Origin: Candidatus Thorarchaeota archaeon
Lineage (GTDB): Archaea > Asgardarchaeota > Thorarchaeia > Thorarchaeales > Thorarchaeaceae
Assembly (NCBI GenBank): GCA_004524435.1
Contig: SDNO01000002.1
Location: 1-44,948, forward strand
Direction: 5' to 3'
DNA length: 44,948 nt
Each line of letters starts with the position of its first letter. Position 1 is the first letter of the stretch. The notes beneath the pieces were generated by a model. The model did not search any database, was not told the origin of the DNA, and saw nothing but the letters and a program-made list of their open reading frames with translations. Of the stretch, positions 25,777 through 42,766 are shown one piece after another. A program made the translations under genes and the position numbers.

Positions 25777-25945
25777 CCTCTTTGTGGATATCTTCAGAAA
25801 TGGACCGCTGGGCGCGAAATGGAAGCTGCGAAAAAAGGCTAAATAGGTTCCATCAGACTCGTCCTTGTCCGTCGATTACTTCACCGTGGGCACGAACGAG
25901 TGAAGTGGTCAGACAATCAACGATCCTATCATTTGAGGCTTGACT

Positions 25946-26479
25946 GTGTCAGAAGCGTTTCAGTACATGCGGAAGGTTGTTATGATTGGCGCCGGGGGCA
26001 GTGGCAAGACCGCGCTTGTCAATCGGTTCCTGACACATAAGTTCTCAGAGCAGTACATAGTCACCATCGGAAGCCAATTCGCTGTCAAGACGGTCGCGGT
26101 CGATAGGGACAATGGGAGTAGTGTCACCGTGAAGCTTCTGGTCTGGGATCTGGCTGGTCAGCAGCGCTTCGACTTCATCCGGTCTAGCTACTATAAGGGA
26201 GCAAAAGGTGCTCTGCTTGTGTTTGACGTGACACGAAAGAACACCTACGATGTCCTTCCCAACTGGATTGAAGAAACAGAGAATGCCCTGGGCCAGCGAA
26301 TCCCCATCATCCTCCTGGCAAACAAGGTTGATCTGGTTGATGAACGAGTCATATCTTCTGACATGGCTCACCAATTTGTGGAGGAGAATGGACTCAACGG
26401 CTATCTCGAAACCAGTGCTCTCACGGGGCAGAATGTTGAGCACGCATTCTATCTACTTGCTAAGTCTAGCCTGAACTAG
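25946..26479 (+). CDS. Ras/Rab-like small GTPase
   Basis: 177 residues, a single GTPase domain. G1 GAGGSGKT at 15-22; G2 Thr in the QYIVTIG segment; G3 WDLAGQQRF; G4 NKVD; G5 ETSAL. All catalytic motifs are intact, including the Gln of DxAGQ, and the effector region resembles Rab. The C-terminus ends LLAKSSLN without a Cys motif, so no prenylation is expected; membrane binding would need a partner. GTG at 25946 is used because GAGG lies 7 bases upstream, which does not fit the TTG at 25940. It stands between a divergent ABC cluster and the M42 peptidase. Confidence 0.9.
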   Translation: MSEAFQYMRKVVMIGAGGSGKTALVNRFLTHKFSEQYIVTIGSQFAVKTVAVDRDNGSSVTVKLLVWDLAGQQRFDFIRSSYYKGAKGALLVFDVTRKNTYDVLPNWIEETENALGQRIPIILLANKVDLVDERVISSDMAHQFVEENGLNGYLETSALTGQNVEHAFYLLAKSSLN

Positions 26480-28877: not shown

Positions 28878-29693
28878 CTAGTCATCGGTCGATTCGTCGT
28901 CTTCTTTGTCTACATAGTCTGAAAAGAGAACCTTTCTAGCAGCGGCAACCGTCTTGGGTCCGATTCCGGATACCTCCTCCCATTCATCGATTCTCCTCAC
29001 TACCTCAAAGGGGCTACCAAAGAGATTGAGTAGTGCTTTTGCCCTAACGACATTCACACTTGGGAAGCCTGCTATGAAGAACTCTTGCTCATCAGCCATG
29101 GAGTCTAGCCCCTTTCGTGTTCTCACAACCGGCAATCGGGTGCCACTCTCATCTTTATATCTGTCATCCGGAAATAGGACACCATATATGAGGCCAGCAG
29201 AATGGAGTGCATTGAAGCCCTCCAAGACCTCAATACCTCTCTCTTTTACACTCTCTATCAATGCATCAAAAGCGGAGGGGTGGATGTAACTCACTCGTTC
29301 CATCGTAACCATGAATGGTTTGTTCTTTGACTTGTTGCTCTTGAAGGGAATGTATACACACCCCTTGACCGGGTCTCTTCTGATCGAGAGGACATTCTCA
29401 ATCAAGAGGTAGGGTTTCTCGTATTCGAGAAGAGCATCCATCTGCTTCTGAAATCGCGGCACACCCGCTGCACTCCCCTTCAGCGTGTTGACGAGGTCGT
29501 TGACCGTCTTTCGCTCGATTGCGATTCCCTCTGGACCTAGAACATCGCCAATAGGGATCTTCTGTATCGTGTATTGTATCTCTTCCTTATCCAGCATTGA
29601 CATCAAGTGCTTTACGGAGTTCATCCGTTTGCCGCCCGTCTCATGAACGTCGATGACAACGACAGGCACGTTACCAAACAAATCAGTCTGCAT
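28878..29693 (-). CDS. XPF/Mus81-type structure-specific endonuclease
   Basis: ERCC4 nuclease domain plus (HhH)2. Catalytic core: VVVIDVHETGGKR near 11-23, IGDVLGPEGIAIERKTVNDL near 48-67 (metal ligand Asp50 and the ERK-x3-D motif at 60-66). C-terminal helix-hairpin-helix pair: FIAGFPSVNVVRAKALLNLF then WEEVSGIGPKTVAAARKVLF near 205-255. There is no helicase domain, so it is the short form. Length 271. It cuts branched or flap DNA in repair and fork processing by family analogy. It begins 2 bases after the DUF4443 regulator stop and may be co-transcribed with the transporter genes, an unexpected partner. Confidence 0.9.
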   Translation of the reverse strand: MQTDLFGNVPVVVIDVHETGGKRMNSVKHLMSMLDKEEIQYTIQKIPIGDVLGPEGIAIERKTVNDLVNTLKGSAAGVPRFQKQMDALLEYEKPYLLIENVLSIRRDPVKGCVYIPFKSNKSKNKPFMVTMERVSYIHPSAFDALIESVKERGIEVLEGFNALHSAGLIYGVLFPDDRYKDESGTRLPVVRTRKGLDSMADEQEFFIAGFPSVNVVRAKALLNLFGSPFEVVRRIDEWEEVSGIGPKTVAAARKVLFSDYVDKEDDESTDD

Positions 29694-29695
29694 AC

Positions 29696-30391
29696 CTAGT
29701 CCTCTTCAAATAGGGTCATAACAGCAGCCATGGATACTTCCCTCGCAAGATTTCCGTCGTCTGACGATCCGATGACAATTGCATCGCCATCTTCAGGTCT
29801 TAGGCTGTCAGTTATGAGGAGTGTTTCTTCTGGGTAGGTGCTCAGTATGTTGAAATCATCCGGCGGCATGAGCAATAGTCCTTCTTTCATCACGAGAGTT
29901 GTGGCTCCGGCATTGCCTGCGCCCCCTTGAATGATTGCCTCATCTCTCTGTCTGATGCCGTCCACAACTGACTCTGCCTTTCCTTTGACTATGTTGGCGA
30001 AGGACTGTTTGAAGACGGTCAGGTTGCCGACGTTCAAGAACAGGCCTAGTGGCACATCATTGGTCAGGTCCTCAAAGAGCGAAGCGCCCTCTGCCGTCAG
30101 TTTTTGTCCCTGTCTTCCTTCGGGTGTGATATATCCACTGTCTGCCAGTCTTCTGAGTAGCGTCCTGACACTGCCCTCCCCTATCGACATGTTCTCGCAG
30201 AGCTCATATCTGCCTAGGGGCTGCTGCCGGCCTATCATCACCGTTGCCACGGCGACATGGTACGGTTTGAAGACAGGGGGAACTCTCCCGTCCGCCGGTA
30301 ATGCTAGTTCAGTGAGTGTGTCTTTCCAGTGCACGACGAGCCAAACTCCATAGTGCTCTCCACCCGGCCTGTATTTTACTCTTCGGTCCAT
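29696..30391 (-). CDS. Winged-helix regulator with DUF4443-like domain
   Basis: 231 residues. The winged helix lies at about 45-105: FKPYHVAVATVMIGRQQPLG, then MSIGEGSVRTLLRRLADSGY and GQKLTAEGASLFEDL. The GEGSVRTLLRRL helix is a recognisable feature of archaeal DUF4443-type regulators. The C-terminal region (110-231) probably binds a ligand: TLVMKEGLLLMPPDDFNI then DGDAIVIGSSDDGNLAREVS. Start ATG 30391 overlaps the ECF S gene by 16 bases. Context suggests control of the transporter operon. The ligand might be the transported vitamin, but this is a guess. Confidence 0.75.
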   Translation of the reverse strand: MDRRVKYRPGGEHYGVWLVVHWKDTLTELALPADGRVPPVFKPYHVAVATVMIGRQQPLGRYELCENMSIGEGSVRTLLRRLADSGYITPEGRQGQKLTAEGASLFEDLTNDVPLGLFLNVGNLTVFKQSFANIVKGKAESVVDGIRQRDEAIIQGGAGNAGATTLVMKEGLLLMPPDDFNILSTYPEETLLITDSLRPEDGDAIVIGSSDDGNLAREVSMAAVMTLFEED

Positions 30392-30969
30392 TCCAGCCGG
30401 TCATCCTGCATTGACCATATCGATACGCCAAGGTCCTGCTTGATGGCGGCTTCCAGTCTTGGCACTGCTAGGGGTAGTAGCAGGGCATTGGACAGAATGT
30501 GGACGATGGTGAACGGGGCTCCCGAAAGGACTGCTATCCAATATGGGATGCCAAACGCGAGTGAGTAGCCTGCATTTGTCAATAGATCGAAGATCAGCGT
30601 TGTGAAGGAACCCACTCCCGCCAACTTGAGCCTCCCAGGCCGACCATGCGAACTCACGATTTCACCTTTGCCCAGAACGGCCGCAGTTGCACAGACATAG
30701 CTCCAACCGATGACTTGGAATATCCAAATCTGTGGGATGAAGCCCCCCCAGGGGTTGATCATCCCGAAGACCAATGACATCAGTAGAGCGACCCAGATTC
30801 CCATATTGAGGCCGAACACATATGCCGTCACGAAGAGAATGGTTGTCCCGAATTCTACACTAGGGACTGCCACCAATGCATAATTGCCCACTAGGGCAAG
30901 GGCTGTCATCACGGAAGCGAGGGCAACCCATTTGCTCCTGGAGATGTATGTGTCTTTCTCCTCTGACAT
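30376..30969 (-). CDS. ECF transporter S component
   Basis: Integral membrane substrate-binding subunit of an energy-coupling-factor transporter, 197 residues, six hydrophobic segments. Seen: LASVMTALALVGNYALVAVP near 15-34, VEFGTTILFVTAYVFGLNMG near 37-56, the INPWGGFIPQIWIFQVIGWS segment, and FTIVHILSNALLLPLAVP. ATG at 30969 is used because GGAGG lies 7 bases upstream. No ATPase or T component is in the window, as is normal for group II S components that share a common module. Substrate: cobamide is suggested by the neighbouring DUF4430 protein but is unproven. Confidence 0.82.
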   Translation of the reverse strand: MSEEKDTYISRSKWVALASVMTALALVGNYALVAVPSVEFGTTILFVTAYVFGLNMGIWVALLMSLVFGMINPWGGFIPQIWIFQVIGWSYVCATAAVLGKGEIVSSHGRPGRLKLAGVGSFTTLIFDLLTNAGYSLAFGIPYWIAVLSGAPFTIVHILSNALLLPLAVPRLEAAIKQDLGVSIWSMQDDRLEWTEE

Positions 30970-30985
30970 CTTCAAGCCTCCATGA

Positions 30986-31747
30986 TTACTTCTTCGTGAT
31001 GAGGGCCGCGCCCACTAGGAGCACCGCGGCAATGCCCGCTCCTCCTAGTCCTACAATCATGAAAAGGAGGCCTAGCGGAACAGGCTTGACCGGTTCTTTT
31101 ATCGATGACAATTCAAGGGTCAGGATGTAGGGCACTCCGAAGGAATATGATGTGTTGCAGAACACTAGAACTCCTGTTTCTAGGTCATACGCGAGTTCTG
31201 TCTGTTGAGGCGCACCAAACTCAACTGGGTCTTGAACATAGTCGAAGAAGACGCACTCGTGGGTGTGATTTGAAGCATCTAGTTCCCTCAGCGAGACCTG
31301 TATGGAGCCATTCATGTAGTTTCCACTCTTGCGCGCAGCTGCCTCTTGAGCGGTCTCGTTCAGACGTTCGACAGCCTCTGGGTCGATGGGAATAATTAGC
31401 CCCGGGAAGAATGGAGTCTTTCCCCATACACCAAGCACCAGTTCGATTCCGATTCGGGTGTTATTTGCCTGTGTAGTGAGATTTCCTATTGTGAGATTGC
31501 CAGCTATCTCTGGACTCACAGAGGTAACCTCATACTCGACCTTTGATCCCTTCTCCGCAAGCCACGTCTCGGATCCTGACCAGCCCCACGCAAAAGGGAC
31601 TGATGGACTATCGATTACATTCCACTCAATGATTGTATTGCCATTCTGTGAGGGTATTAGGCATTCGTGGTAGTTGACCGGGAGGAGCACTATCGCCAGC
31701 GTCAATGTTGCCCATATGGCTGATTGTCTGATGATGTTGCTTGGCAA
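30986..31747 (-). CDS. Secreted protein anchored by a C-terminal helix
   Basis: 253 residues, family not recognised. N-terminal signal-like helix (SAIWATLTLAIVLLP), a mostly beta ectodomain with several N-x-S/T sites (NLTIGNLTTQANNT), and a C-terminal helix GLLFMIVGLGGAGIAAVLLV followed by a short basic tail. This is typical of archaeal surface proteins held in the membrane. It lies 6 bases after the DUF4430 gene and 16 before the ECF S start, so it belongs to the same operon. It may be an extracellular partner in nutrient binding. TTG start. Confidence 0.65.
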   Translation of the reverse strand: MPSNIIRQSAIWATLTLAIVLLPVNYHECLIPSQNGNTIIEWNVIDSPSVPFAWGWSGSETWLAEKGSKVEYEVTSVSPEIAGNLTIGNLTTQANNTRIGIELVLGVWGKTPFFPGLIIPIDPEAVERLNETAQEAAARKSGNYMNGSIQVSLRELDASNHTHECVFFDYVQDPVEFGAPQQTELAYDLETGVLVFCNTSYSFGVPYILTLELSSIKEPVKPVPLGLLFMIVGLGGAGIAAVLLVGAALITKK

Positions 31748-31753
31748 AGATAT

Positions 31754-32257
31754 CTACTTCCTCACTGATAGTCGTAGAACGATCAAGAACACAACTGCTG
31801 CCAATCCTACTAGGGGAAGTCCGAATAGAAGGGACCTGTCGATTTCGCCCGGCGTTGTGGTGGTGGTTGCGGTTGTTTCTGCGGGTCCAAAACGCCATTC
31901 AATGGTGTCCCCATGCTCAACTGAATAGTGATTTGCAGCTACAGACCCAATATCACCGTTGACCCAATACTGCCACCAAAGACCAAGTTCCGGATCATTT
32001 GCAACGCTAGCGATGGAAGTCACGAAAGCCATGTTTCCATACCATTCGTACTCAATATCGACAACTTCCTCTGTCACGTTCAGTACTGTAGAGCCCTGCA
32101 ATTCCTCATATGAACTGAGTGTCCCATTCCCGAAGTCAAGTATCAGACTCAGGTTATCTGCGTCTGCAATCCTAATTCCCTCAGTCTCTGTTCTGACCGT
32201 CATTGGTACCGTGAGTGATAGTACTGCCACCATTATTATGATCAGATGCATCCGCAC
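31754..32257 (-). CDS. DUF4430-like surface protein, C-terminally anchored
   Basis: 167 residues. Signal peptide at 1-22 (HLIIIMVAVLSLTVP), then a compact domain: ADADNLSLILDFGNGTLSSY, WWQYWVNGDIGSVAANHY near 92-109, SVEHGDTIEWRFG near 110-122. The W-x-Y-W-V-N-G plus D-G/H-D-x-I-E-W pattern matches DUF4430, which is related to the C-terminal cobalamin-binding domain of transcobalamin and intrinsic factor. A Thr-rich stalk (ATTTTTTPG) precedes a C-terminal TM helix. GTG 32257 or ATG 32251. First gene of the operon, with an inverted repeat at its promoter. Probable extracellular ligand capture. Confidence 0.75.
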   Translation of the reverse strand: MRMHLIIIMVAVLSLTVPMTVRTETEGIRIADADNLSLILDFGNGTLSSYEELQGSTVLNVTEEVVDIEYEWYGNMAFVTSIASVANDPELGLWWQYWVNGDIGSVAANHYSVEHGDTIEWRFGPAETTATTTTTPGEIDRSLLFGLPLVGLAAVVFLIVLRLSVRK

Positions 32258-32269
32258 GATTATCCACCA

Positions 32270-32294
32270 GTTGTAGGATTGGTTAACCTACAAC
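32270..32294 (-). promoter_or_regulatory. Inverted repeat at the operon promoter (possible operator)
   Basis: GTTGTAGG at 32270-32277 and CCTACAAC at 32287-32294 form a perfect 8-base inverted repeat with a 9-base spacer. The box TTAAAT at 32308-32313 (reverse strand) predicts a start near 32284, inside the repeat. It is a good candidate site for the operon-encoded winged-helix regulator. Confidence 0.55.
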
Positions 32295-32686
32295 CTCTTG
32301 GAATCGGATTTAAGAATTGTCATTGGTCAGAGTGCAGCCTGACGTCTGGAATGCTGCTGTCATTCGGGAGCCTTTGAGATACGGGTCGCTGGATATGTGA
32401 ACTCTGCAAGGGGACCAAGTTAAGAACGAACGCGATTGCACGCCGCATACGCGATGTTTCTTAAAGAGAGTTTACCCAGACGACTTTCCGCTCCATGGAG
32501 ACTGACTCTCCAGCCGAAGGCGTTCATATGACATTCAGTTATGCGTCCCCTTCAAGTCCTATCAGGATATAGACGATTCTTCGAAAATATACGTTTTGGC
32601 GGCATATCCTTCTCTCTCTTCACCGAAGAACCTAAAACTATCTGAACTCCGACAACTCTTGTTTGTTGGTCTTGCGGTGACTGCTC
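32295..32686. other. intergenic region between divergent operons
   Basis: About 390 bases without a convincing gene. AAATATAC near 32586-32593 and CTAAAACT near 32632-32639 are possible TATA boxes for the dTMP kinase. A perfect 10-base palindrome (CTCCATGGAG) occurs near 32492-32501. No riboswitch consensus is recognised. The reverse-strand ORF at 32562-32798 overlaps the kinase and is judged spurious. Confidence 0.35.
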
Positions 32687-36070: not shown

Positions 36071-36157
36071 ATATTAGCCTGATGGACGGCTCCGCTATTC
36101 GGTGCCTTGGATATGACTGAGATAACAATGAGTCCGTCAAGGATTGATTTACATATA
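36071..36157. promoter_or_regulatory. Divergent promoters for double GNAT and longin-GTPase
   Basis: Reverse-strand TAATAT at 36071-36076 serves the GNAT gene. Forward TTTACATATA at 36148-36157 predicts a start near 36181, followed by GGTGA at 36201-36205 and the TTG at 36213. Both fit starts that remove the apparent 78-base overlap. Confidence 0.5.
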
Positions 36158-36212
36158 CATTGAAGGAAGATTCCCAAGGATAGACCATCTTCGTAGCATC
36201 GGTGAACAGGCC

Positions 36213-38042
36213 TTGATTCATAACACGTTCCTAGTCCGTGTCTCCAACAACAAAGTACTCGCATCGACCCAGTATTGGCCAGTGGATGTTGAACCGGAGG
36301 AGATTGCAGAGTTTATCGAGACCAGGTCAGATCTGCGGTCAGCCGATACCTCCATGTCTGAGATTCCTCTGATAATCGGTGACGACAAGTACCACGGTGT
36401 CGAAGTAGTCCGAGACCTCCTCTTGGTGTTCGTAACAGATACCAGTGAAGATGAACATTCCATCTTTGAACGGATGGAGGATGCGGTCAAGCCCCTGAGA
36501 AGAACACTTGAGAAGAAGGGGCTGGACGAGCTGGTCGAACACTACGAGGCTCTCATCGAACCATCCGTCACTACCCGTCTGAAGATTGCTCTTGTCGGGG
36601 AGGGTGGTGTTGGAAAGACAACGACCCTGCACCTACTGCTCGGCGATACACCTCCAAAGCAATACGTCCCCACCATAGCTCTCAATCTGGAAACCGTGGA
36701 GAACATCCGCTTTGGGAACTACAGCCTCGTTTTGTGGGACTTCGCCGGCCAGGAGCGGTTCAGAACGCTCTGGCGCTTCTACTTCCACGGCGCAGATGTC
36801 ATCTTCTTGGTGTGTGACTCTACGCTGAGGAATGTTATCATCAGTAAGGACATCCTGAAGCTGATACGCCGTGATGCTCCCAAGGTCCCTGTCTTTGCCC
36901 TAGCAAACAAACAGGACAAGCCCAACGCAATGAAGCCTGAGGTCGTCCACAAGATATTGGGGATTCCTACGTATCCCATGGTGGCAATTGACAAGGAACG
37001 CCGTGACGAAATGCTGAGGATTCTGATGAACGCTGCAGCCCAGTATGTTGGGGTAGTGCTTCCTGACCTTCCTGCAAGCGAGCTCCTGAGATTCAGCGAT
37101 GAGGCTGCTGAGAGGGCTGCTGTGGTTGACCTTCGAGGGGAAGATGAGGAAGAGGAGTACGAAACGGTTGAGGTCATCGAAGAGGTGTATGTGGACGAGG
37201 ACGGTCACATCATCGAGGACACAGACGACTACGAGATCATCGAAGAAGTCGTTGAGGAAGTGGAGATTGAACCCGGTGAGGAGCTGGATGTTGAAGATAT
37301 TGATGTGGCGCCCGAGGAGCCTGCAGTCCCTGAGACCAGCACCGATTTCGTGATAGTCGAAGAAGATGAGACCGAAACTGCGGAGGAGATTGTTGAAGAA
37401 CCCCCTGTTTCTGGAGATATCCCAGAACCTGCATATCATTCCTCCACTGAGTTGGTTCCTGTCGAAGAGGAATCTGAAGCCGCCTCTGAAGATGAGGCTA
37501 CATACGAGATAATCCCGATTCAAGAGGAAGAGGGAGAGGCAGAGGAACAGGCAGAGGAACCCCCCACTGAGACTCCTGAAGAGGAATTCGACGTGGAAGT
37601 GGAGGATAAGGGTGCCCCTGCGGAGATATCAGTTGAAGTATCAGACGAAGCCAAAGAAGAGGTGGAGGAGGTACCAGAACCTCCATCTGAGGAGGAGATG
37701 ACTGACGAGCTGCGCCTCGTCAAGGATATCCTCTCCGAAAAGCTAGATGCAGACGACATAATTGCGGAGGAAATAGACCGGACAGCTCCGGATGACCTCG
37801 ATATTGCTCTCGATGCGCTGAAGTGTGAAGAGACTGTGAGCCCGAACGGAACAGAGACTGAGGCTCCGGATGAACTGAGAGAGGATGAGCTTCTAGACCT
37901 CGATAGAATCTTGGGGCTCTTGGACGACAAGACTACACCCCCGCCAGATGACACAGAATCCGCTGAGAAACCGGAGAGTGTAGACGAAGATACCCTTGTT
38001 GAGCTTGAAGAGATAATCGACCCCAAAGAATCTCATGACTAG
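36213..38042 (+). CDS. Longin-like domain fused to small GTPase with long acidic tail
   Basis: 609 residues in three parts. Residues 1-115: longin-like alpha/beta domain (NTFLVRVSNNKVLASTQYW, then VEVVRDLLLVFVTDTSE and a long helix). Residues 122-295: Arf/Rab-like GTPase with G1 GEGGVGKT at 129-136, G2 Thr in YVPTIALN, G3 WDFAGQERF, G4 NKQD. Residues about 310-609: a roughly 300-residue tail dominated by Glu and Asp, with little hydrophobic content until helical ends such as TDELRLVKDILSEKLDADDI. TTG at 36213 is favoured because GGTGA lies 7 bases upstream. Likely a membrane-traffic or polarity-type switch carrying its own regulatory domain; role inferred. Confidence 0.82.
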   Translation: MIHNTFLVRVSNNKVLASTQYWPVDVEPEEIAEFIETRSDLRSADTSMSEIPLIIGDDKYHGVEVVRDLLLVFVTDTSEDEHSIFERMEDAVKPLRRTLEKKGLDELVEHYEALIEPSVTTRLKIALVGEGGVGKTTTLHLLLGDTPPKQYVPTIALNLETVENIRFGNYSLVLWDFAGQERFRTLWRFYFHGADVIFLVCDSTLRNVIISKDILKLIRRDAPKVPVFALANKQDKPNAMKPEVVHKILGIPTYPMVAIDKERRDEMLRILMNAAAQYVGVVLPDLPASELLRFSDEAAERAAVVDLRGEDEEEEYETVEVIEEVYVDEDGHIIEDTDDYEIIEEVVEEVEIEPGEELDVEDIDVAPEEPAVPETSTDFVIVEEDETETAEEIVEEPPVSGDIPEPAYHSSTELVPVEEESEAASEDEATYEIIPIQEEEGEAEEQAEEPPTETPEEEFDVEVEDKGAPAEISVEVSDEAKEEVEEVPEPPSEEEMTDELRLVKDILSEKLDADDIIAEEIDRTAPDDLDIALDALKCEETVSPNGTETEAPDELREDELLDLDRILGLLDDKTTPPPDDTESAEKPESVDEDTLVELEEIIDPKESHD

Positions 38043-41396: not shown

Positions 41397-42064
41397 GACT
41401 ATACTCTCCTCTCTGGAACAATCGCAACAATCCCAGAATTCGCTTTAAGACTTATGAAACATCGCTTATGTGAAGTCTGTAGAGTCATGTCTGTCCAGTG
41501 TCAGGGAAAACGACTATCACAGTATCTCGCTTCTCTGTGTCTTCCATGCAAATGGTATAGCATCTCATCAGTGATACGATGCCGGTGGAGAAAGAAAGCC
41601 GGTCGAACTTCTATCACTTGGCCGAGGCCATTACGGCTCTATTCGATGAGATGATTCAACTTGTCCAGAAGCTTGTCGAATCCTTTCAGCGAACTCAAGT
41701 CGAGGTCTGGGTCAATGAATTTCCGAATTTCGACGATCTCTTCCTCCTCCACATCGTGGAAGAGCCAGAATTCAGGTTCTTTGACTTGTTTTGTCGTTGC
41801 CAAGAGAAAGCTCACTCCAAATGATACTCTCACTATATACTTCGCGTTTTGCCGATATAACTTCTTTGATACGGGTTTTGTCGAAATACAGTTCGTACAA
41901 CATCGATTGGCTGTTCCCGTGTGCGCTTGCCAGTCTGCTGGTCTTCTCTAAAGGTGCTAGGAACCGGTCTAGTAACACCTAAGAGCGAGAACGCCAAATC
42001 ATTATTAACTCCCGATATGATTACGGGGACGCAATGTACGGAACGCAGGATTGGGTGCAAGATA
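41397..42064. other. intergenic region with ambiguous small ORFs on both strands
   Basis: 668 bases between rtcB and the COG2229 GTPase. Only the reverse-strand frame at 41639-41815 is supported, weakly. Antisense to it a forward frame, 41579-41824, also looks protein-like (HLAEAITALFDEMIQLVQKL), so at most one is likely real. TTATTAA at 42002-42008 is a probable TATA box for the GTPase, with start near 42031. Confidence 0.4.
41639..41815 (-). CDS. Small hypothetical protein
   Basis: 58 residues if GTG 41815 is used. Sequence is hydrophilic and helical: VKEPEFWLFHDVEEEEIVEI then FIDPDLDLSSLKGFDKLLDK. A TATA box (TTATATC, 41854-41860) predicts a start near 41831, which would give a leader of about 16 bases. 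No homolog is recognised, and the opposite strand also has an open frame, so this could be spurious. Confidence 0.35.
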   Translation of the reverse strand: MSFLLATTKQVKEPEFWLFHDVEEEEIVEIRKFIDPDLDLSSLKGFDKLLDKLNHLIE

Positions 42065-42766
42065 ATGAAGATTGTAGTCACAGGCCCATATGAATCGGGA
42101 AAGAGCTCCATTGTTCATCATATAACCGATGGTGCATGCATCAATGTTGAGCGCAACGGTACCACTATAGCTATGGATCATGGTGTTGCCAACGTGGATG
42201 GCATGAGTGTGTTCCTATTTGGAACACCGGGCCTTCTACGATTCAGGACAATGCGGAAGATTCTCAGTTCTGGTGCTGACGGTATCATATTCGTTGTGGA
42301 TTCAGTCGATGAGGAATCCGACGCCAGAGCCAGACTCTTCTTCAGAGAGATTGCATTCTTCCTTCCCGGAGTTCCCTGTGTCGTTGCGGCAAACAAACAA
42401 GATCTTGCGAGTGCACGGCCTGTTGACAGACTACGTGAGAGTATGAGTTTTCTTGTTGGACTGCCAGTCATCCCCTGTTCAGCTAAGACAGGGGAGAACA
42501 TTGACAATGTACTGCGAACACTGCTCTATCTCTCTATGATGCAATGGTGCTCTGTGTTCAAGAAGATGGCTGAGTATAGTGGTTCATCAGATGGACTCAG
42601 TCAATTGATGGACGACCTAAACATGGATCGAGAGCAGGTTGTTGGCTACCTCAGGCGTTTTGAGCTCCGTAAGCTACTTGAGGTTCAAGTCGGAGACGAA
42701 GAATTCAAGGTCCGAGAGGAAGTCCGACCAATACTGGAGAATCCAATGACCCTGATGCGCCGATAG
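42065..42766 (+). CDS. COG2229-type small GTPase with C-terminal winged-helix-like domain
   Basis: 233 residues. GTPase of the COG2229/SR-beta-like group: G1 GPYESGKS at 7-14, GTTIAMDHG in the switch I region, G3 LFGTPGLLRF (replacing DxAGQ), G4 NKQD and G5 SAKTG. G3 lacks the usual Asp and catalytic Gln, so intrinsic hydrolysis may be slow. Residues about 165-233 resemble a winged helix (GLSQLMDDLNMDREQVVGYL, then RRFELRKLLEVQVG). ATG 42065 is used; the in-frame upstream extension has no homologous look and precedes the predicted transcription start near 42031. The TPR gene follows after 63 bases. Confidence 0.8.
   Translation: MKIVVTGPYESGKSSIVHHITDGACINVERNGTTIAMDHGVANVDGMSVFLFGTPGLLRFRTMRKILSSGADGIIFVVDSVDEESDARARLFFREIAFFLPGVPCVVAANKQDLASARPVDRLRESMSFLVGLPVIPCSAKTGENIDNVLRTLLYLSMMQWCSVFKKMAEYSGSSDGLSQLMDDLNMDREQVVGYLRRFELRKLLEVQVGDEEFKVREEVRPILENPMTLMRR

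Follow-up and report, generated by a model that had tools for sequence, protein, structure and literature searches.

Introduction

Bacterial vitamin B12 genes are mostly under riboswitch control, and CarH is a bacterial B12-binding repressor, a transcription factor that responds to B12. RbkR and ThiR are vitamin-responsive regulators of archaea, in which a winged helix-turn-helix (wHTH) domain is fused to a small-molecule domain and which control vitamin genes. The regulator that we propose here differs from RbkR and ThiR in its effector domain, which is DUF4443 and not riboflavin kinase or ThiN, and from CarH in that Pfam finds no B12-binding domain in it. Its family and its fold, over its length, are those of PH0730, a hypothetical protein of Pyrococcus horikoshii (PDB 2P8T), for which we know of no function.

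The idea of an archaeal cobalamin regulon is not new, since RegPrecise, according to a published paper (PMC10746257), lists a predicted cobalamin regulon for Pyrococcus, CblR, with its regulator given as 'unknown'. As occurs with CblR, the regulon described below is a predicted archaeal cobalamin regulon, and Thermococcus has both DUF4443 and a variant of our site at the mutase and nrdDG genes. Unlike CblR, which enters this comparison by that mention alone, it has a proposed regulator and reaches the Asgard and other archaea. Within the literature searched, where we found no paper on DUF4443 and none on archaeal transport by DUF4430, the proposed regulator, its operator and its range appear to be new.

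For the transport side, the closest described system is ECF-CbrT of Lactobacillus delbrueckii (PDB 6FNP), whose S component, CbrT, has been demonstrated to take cobalamin and cobinamide (PMC5997447). The S component of our locus belongs to the same sequence family, the shared ECF module is encoded elsewhere in both cases, and both hosts need cobalamin from outside. In contrast to CbrT, the Thorarchaeota S component is archaeal and adjoins two surface proteins and a transcription factor.

Results

A conserved gene run in Thorarchaeota

The window, that is, the whole 44,948-nucleotide stretch of DNA that was analysed, covers positions 1 to 44,948 of contig SDNO01000002.1 from a Candidatus Thorarchaeota archaeon (assembly GCA_004524435.1). 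The preliminary description had placed a run of five genes at 28878-32294, and the ORF check of the window confirmed it: the minus strand carries all five ORFs, which encode, in this order, a DUF4430 protein, an anchored β-rich protein, an ECF S component, a wHTH-DUF4443 regulator and an XPF-type nuclease. The spacing given there (6, 16, an overlap and 2 bases) held in part. The genes of the DUF4430 and anchored proteins are indeed 6 bp apart, and those of the regulator and the nuclease 2 bp. The gap between the anchored protein and the S component is 10 bp, and is 16 only if the S component starts at ATG 30969, while the 16-bp overlap between the S component and the regulator is gone if the regulator starts where its orthologues begin.

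This gene order is kept across Thorarchaeota, with myo-inositol-phosphate synthase next after the XPF gene in the window's family, whose assignment to Thorarchaeota comes from named loci. Beyond Thorarchaeota, the core made of the S component, DUF4430 and the anchored protein is spread over much of the Asgard phylum: the S component and DUF4430 accompany each other in many further Asgard families, and the anchored protein is often present too.

The last gene of the run (28878..29693, minus strand) encodes an XPF/ERCC4-type nuclease with HhH (PF02732, 39.2 bits vs a cut-off of 24), and its catalytic motif looks intact, with IGD...IERKTVND for the expected GD..ERKxxxD. Its placement in the operon is conserved only in Thorarchaeota and nothing links it to B12. 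A B12-related or regulatory role of this nuclease was considered and discarded, since no such link was seen outside Thorarchaeota; it is probably a co-transcribed passenger.

Note that the window also contains eukaryote-like small GTPase genes (25940-26479, 36144-38042 and 41921-42766), which are usual in Asgard archaea.

Surface proteins and the S component

The first gene (31754..32257, minus strand) encodes a protein of 167 aa with a signal peptide and a C-terminal anchor, in which Pfam recognises DUF4430 as the only domain (PF14478, E=2.7e-14; 53.8 bits vs a cut-off of 23.8). This above-cut-off match is what it shares with the C-terminal beta domain of transcobalamin and intrinsic factor. 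Unlike transcobalamin, the Thorarchaeota protein is small, anchored and stand-alone, without the alpha6-alpha6 barrel. When a profile of the DUF4430 family was compared with the PDB, only transcobalamin-1 and intrinsic factor were matched, weakly and below significance (E 0.13-0.37). The earlier proposal of a surface protein for cobamide capture is supported in that the profile's only PDB matches, although weak, are B12 binders.

The second gene (30986..31747, minus strand) encodes an anchored extracellular beta-rich protein of 253 aa, a putative partner of the DUF4430 protein, which it adjoins across Asgard families. Pfam gives no match for it, and its model is predicted with a pLDDT of 88; the fold search returned no confident match, just weak LolA-like ones.

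The third gene (30376..30975, minus strand, or from the ATG at 30969) encodes the CbrT-like ECF S component. Taken alone, this sequence stays below the Pfam cut-off (PF07155, E=0.14), and a scan of the genome contigs with the single sequence gave no match. The profile of its family, built from 19 S components, matched CbrT (6FNP) with E=3.2e-11, the next S component being HmpT (4hzu) with 0.28. The match to CbrT is thus far above that to any other S component, which supports the ECF-type cobamide uptake suggested in the preliminary description and argues against clustering with another vitamin specificity. Orthologues of the S component are present in 97 of the 149 Asgard genomes. Three EcfT genes accompanied by ATPase genes occur in the source genome, all on other contigs, and in one lineage (L069) ECF-type ABC ATPase genes lie beside the S-DUF4430 pair.

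CbiC was found in none of the 30 Thorarchaeota genomes searched, so that Thorarchaeota must salvage corrinoid. In the source organism salvage is to be expected because CbiC is absent, yet a corrinoid protein and a methyltransferase are encoded. The small operon very probably serves to capture and import vitamin B12, and its transporter, as judged from its sequence family, adds a new archaeal member to the CbrT kind.

A conserved palindrome at the operon start

The preliminary description had taken an inverted repeat at the start of the operon as the operator. This repeat, GTTGTAGG-N9-CCTACAAC, lies at 32270..32294, and no second exact copy exists in the genome. An 8-bp repeat of this kind is expected by chance with a probability of about 6% anywhere in the 429-bp spacer, and of about 0.3% at no more than 60 bp from the start codon. 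By itself the repeat is therefore weak evidence; it counts as evidence because its core is conserved in the orthologues. The palindrome upstream of the orthologous operons is often TAGGATAGGTTAACCTATCCTA, and their common core, of 17 bp, is TAGGATA-NNN-TATCCTA, of which the window carries a degenerate copy, TAGGTTAACCAATCCTA (32274..32290, minus strand), the predicted operator core.

In support of this, the core was present with up to two mismatches at the start of 27 out of 27 orthologous operons, from three Asgard families. With up to one mismatch it gave 31 matches in the 450 kb of these loci, vs 0 for the reversed motif, and it lies less than 150 bp from the DUF4430 start in 27 of the 28 named Thorarchaeota loci. 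The part of the earlier claim that stood is therefore the inner TAGG..CCTA core, conserved at orthologous starts; the GTTGTAGG arms vary among the orthologues, and the exact repeat, with its one genomic copy, was rejected as the operator.

A TATA-like box (CTTAAA, 32309..32314, minus strand) precedes the core by 24 bp. In most orthologous promoters such a box lies ahead of the core by about 11, 18 or 24 bp, a spacing that places the expected transcription start inside the operator. Neither the window nor the test loci gave an Rfam match to a cobalamin riboswitch.

Operator copies at B12 genes of other Asgard archaea

Further copies of the repeat at B12-related genes, as anticipated in the preliminary description, were found in related genomes and not in the source genome itself. 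In the latter (87% complete) no other B12 gene has the site, the near-exact 17-mers lying inside genes or between convergent genes. The operator search covered 149 relatives, in which the flanking genes were read. By hand count, 21 of the 27 exact sites in Asgard archaea outside Thorarchaeota are at B12 or S/DUF4430 loci; one of the remaining sites is at a contig end and five are without such a gene.

In these other Asgard families the 17-mer precedes btuF-like genes (L124, L128, L130, L131 and L134), cobT (L130 and L135), corrinoid-protein genes (L125, L127, L129 and L138) and another ECF S component (L126). An exact site was also seen at an anchored-protein-like gene near the S component (L143). 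Slightly differing sites occur at cbiB, opposite a phosphoglycerate-mutase-type gene (L142), and at two S loci of f2 (L144 and L145). Among the Thorarchaeota matches listed, one Thorarchaeon (G015) has an exact site before the gene of a methylmalonyl-CoA decarboxylase/propionyl-CoA carboxylase subunit (L110). The gene names tested were borne out by library searches, with CobT and CbiB above the curated cut-offs.

A different location was observed in four Thorarchaeota genera, where the 17-mer recurs just beyond the 3' end of one conserved gene of about 190 aa and has no obvious promoter role (L152 1501-1517, on contig C228 of the source genome; L111 5004; L114 5037; L123 5012). In L114 and L123 this gene and a glyoxalase-like gene are convergent, with the 17-mer between them.

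The proposed DUF4443 regulator

The fourth gene (29696..30391, minus strand) encodes a transcription factor composed of a PH0730-like wHTH domain (PF22167, 37.4 bits vs a cut-off of 30.2) and DUF4443 (PF14544, 70.8 bits vs 27), which we propose as the cobalamin repressor. Its predicted model matches 2P8T with E=2.8e-11 and a TM score of 0.81 by target; besides 2P8T, the fold search gave no informative match for the DUF4443 effector domain. A wide alignment of DUF4443 diverged too much to yield patterns, and a closer one that includes PH0730 was used.

In seven lineages DUF4443 is tied either to operator sites or to B12 genes. The gene lies inside the uptake operon in Thorarchaeota and in f9, and is divergent from the S gene, with the site between them (f5, L064). 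It closes a btuF-btuC-btuD run in Bathyarchaeota (L223) and Mnemosynella (L227), follows the mutase in Thermococcus (L249 and L283) and, in Thermoplasmata, precedes a propeller-EcfT-EcfAA'-S operon. Moreover, where the DUF4443 gene is unlinked (G006; L117, a Thorarchaeon), it carries the operator itself. Note that the Bathyarchaeota locus shows the linkage to btu genes but no recognised site. The recurrence of the site at B12 genes and the linkage of DUF4443 in seven lineages support the earlier suggestion of an operator bound by the winged-helix protein of the same operon.

Outside Thorarchaeota, the presence of DUF4443 correlates weakly with that of the exact site (18/69 vs 3/33, Fisher p=0.07), too weakly to serve as proof. 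In three Asgard genomes (G052, G059 and G066; 80-91% complete) operators are present and no clear DUF4443 was detected; the candidate matches in G059 and G066 were rejected, being DtxR-like metal-type repressors by eye.

In f2 genomes, of Lokiarchaeal type, the neighbours of DUF4443 are a gene for a JAB-domain protein and one for a subunit of the proteasome, and not B12 genes (L165, L169, L173, L175 and L180).

A variant site outside the Asgard archaea

A scan with the DUF4443 alignment yielded 64 named loci, including those of Thermococcus, Thermoplasmata, Bathyarchaeota and Candidatus Mnemosynella. In non-Asgard archaea that carry DUF4443 the sites resemble TGGATA-NNN-TATCCA. The site of the Thermoplasmata ECF operon is TTGGATAATACATCCAA, and Thermococcus has TTGGATAAAATATCCAA before methylmalonyl-CoA mutase, which is followed by DUF4443. 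In Mnemosynella a variant site is found 20 bp before btuF, and others precede DUF4430 genes.

Further variant sites were sought in 13 such non-Asgard genomes. A euryarchaeon has them at cobT-cbiS as well as in the region that separates cobQ from btuFCD, and a site also lies between btuF and nrdJ. In three Thermococcus-type genomes (L281, L282 and L284), TGGATA-N3-TATCCA stands just before nrdD-nrdG, which encode the B12-independent ribonucleotide reductase; this echoes the bacterial riboswitches, which control B12-independent isozymes.

Variant sites without a B12 gene were seen as well (L279 and L285-L288). That of L285 (4974), in one Thermococcus genome, coincides with the start of an anion-transporter-like gene that shows no connection to B12.

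Discussion

We estimate at roughly 0.8 the probability that positions 32257-29696 form an operon for the uptake of cobamide (vitamin B12) that includes its own DUF4443 regulator, which would bind the operator and sense cobamide. In the proposed mechanism, the DUF4430 protein and its anchored partner would capture corrinoid outside the single membrane and hand it to the CbrT-like S component, powered by one of the three EcfA-EcfA'-EcfT modules, whose genes lie elsewhere in the genome. A dimer of the wHTH-DUF4443 protein would repress the operon by binding to the 17-bp palindrome that covers the transcription start, and its DUF4443 domain would sense cobamide, most likely as co-repressor. From comparative genomics we infer the binding of cobamide by DUF4430, the S component and DUF4443, the binding of DNA by the DUF4443 protein, the hand-over between the surface proteins, and the direction in which the regulator would respond to cobamide. 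Cobamide as co-repressor is favoured because the B12-independent nrdDG genes and the import genes carry the site; the fact that mutase and corrinoid-protein genes also carry it argues against so simple a scheme.

The best candidate regulator of archaeal B12 genes is DUF4443. We consider it likely that DUF4443 proteins constitute a new family of cobamide-sensing transcription factors and the missing regulator of the archaeal cobalamin regulon, from Thermococcus, Thermoplasmata and Mnemosynella to the Asgard archaea. They would control import and salvage, B12-dependent enzymes, and also the ribonucleotide reductase that works without B12.

Another possibility could be that the cobalamin operon and its operator are as described and a different regulator, for example of the ArsR type, binds the palindrome, DUF4443 being linked to it in some other role. 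The three genomes with operators and no detectable DUF4443 would fit this, as would the JAB and proteasome neighbourhoods of DUF4443 in f2 and the ArsR genes found near the S component in L063 and L066 or adjoining the site in L110. However, the operons of Thorarchaeota, Mnemosynella and Bathyarchaeota showed no ArsR gene, and it is DUF4443 that is independently and repeatedly linked to sites or B12 genes in the seven lineages, with the unlinked gene of L117 carrying the operator itself; we thus regard a different regulator as unlikely. Import of a different vitamin or cofactor by the S component, such as riboflavin or a thiamine precursor, with DUF4430 as an unrelated surface protein, seems quite improbable to us. 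The operator of the S operon is the same as that at btuF, cobT and corrinoid-protein genes, the Mnemosynella DUF4430 genes are under the same operator, and the S profile separates CbrT from HmpT by 3e-11 vs 0.28. These results outweigh the weakness of the similarity between DUF4430 and transcobalamin, the shared folds and fast divergence of S components, and the sole Pfam transporter-family match of the S component alone, to the riboflavin S family with E=0.14.

It is also conceivable that the inverted repeat is due to chance, for which the probability of about 6% in the spacer leaves some room, or forms an RNA-level hairpin near the start codon with no protein partner. We give this very little credence, since the 17-bp core is kept despite sequence change, lies over the transcription start and recurs at unlinked B12 genes, and Rfam gave no match. 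A cobamide uptake operon controlled by its own DUF4443 protein is the reading that we prefer.

If this regulatory role is true, the control of B12 genes by DUF4443 would be a parallel to the cobalamin riboswitches of bacteria. The work names a testable regulator and operator and predicts targets in culturable Thermococcus. PH0730 (2P8T), an orphan of structural genomics, would gain a proposed function, and DUF4430 surface proteins and a CbrT-like transporter would be tied to B12 uptake in Asgard archaea that are unable to make the corrin ring.

Finally, a protein combining DUF4430 with a prenyltransferase-type alpha-alpha toroid was observed in Mnemosynella (L278 7241-9466), downstream of an operator; these are the two domains of animal transcobalamin.
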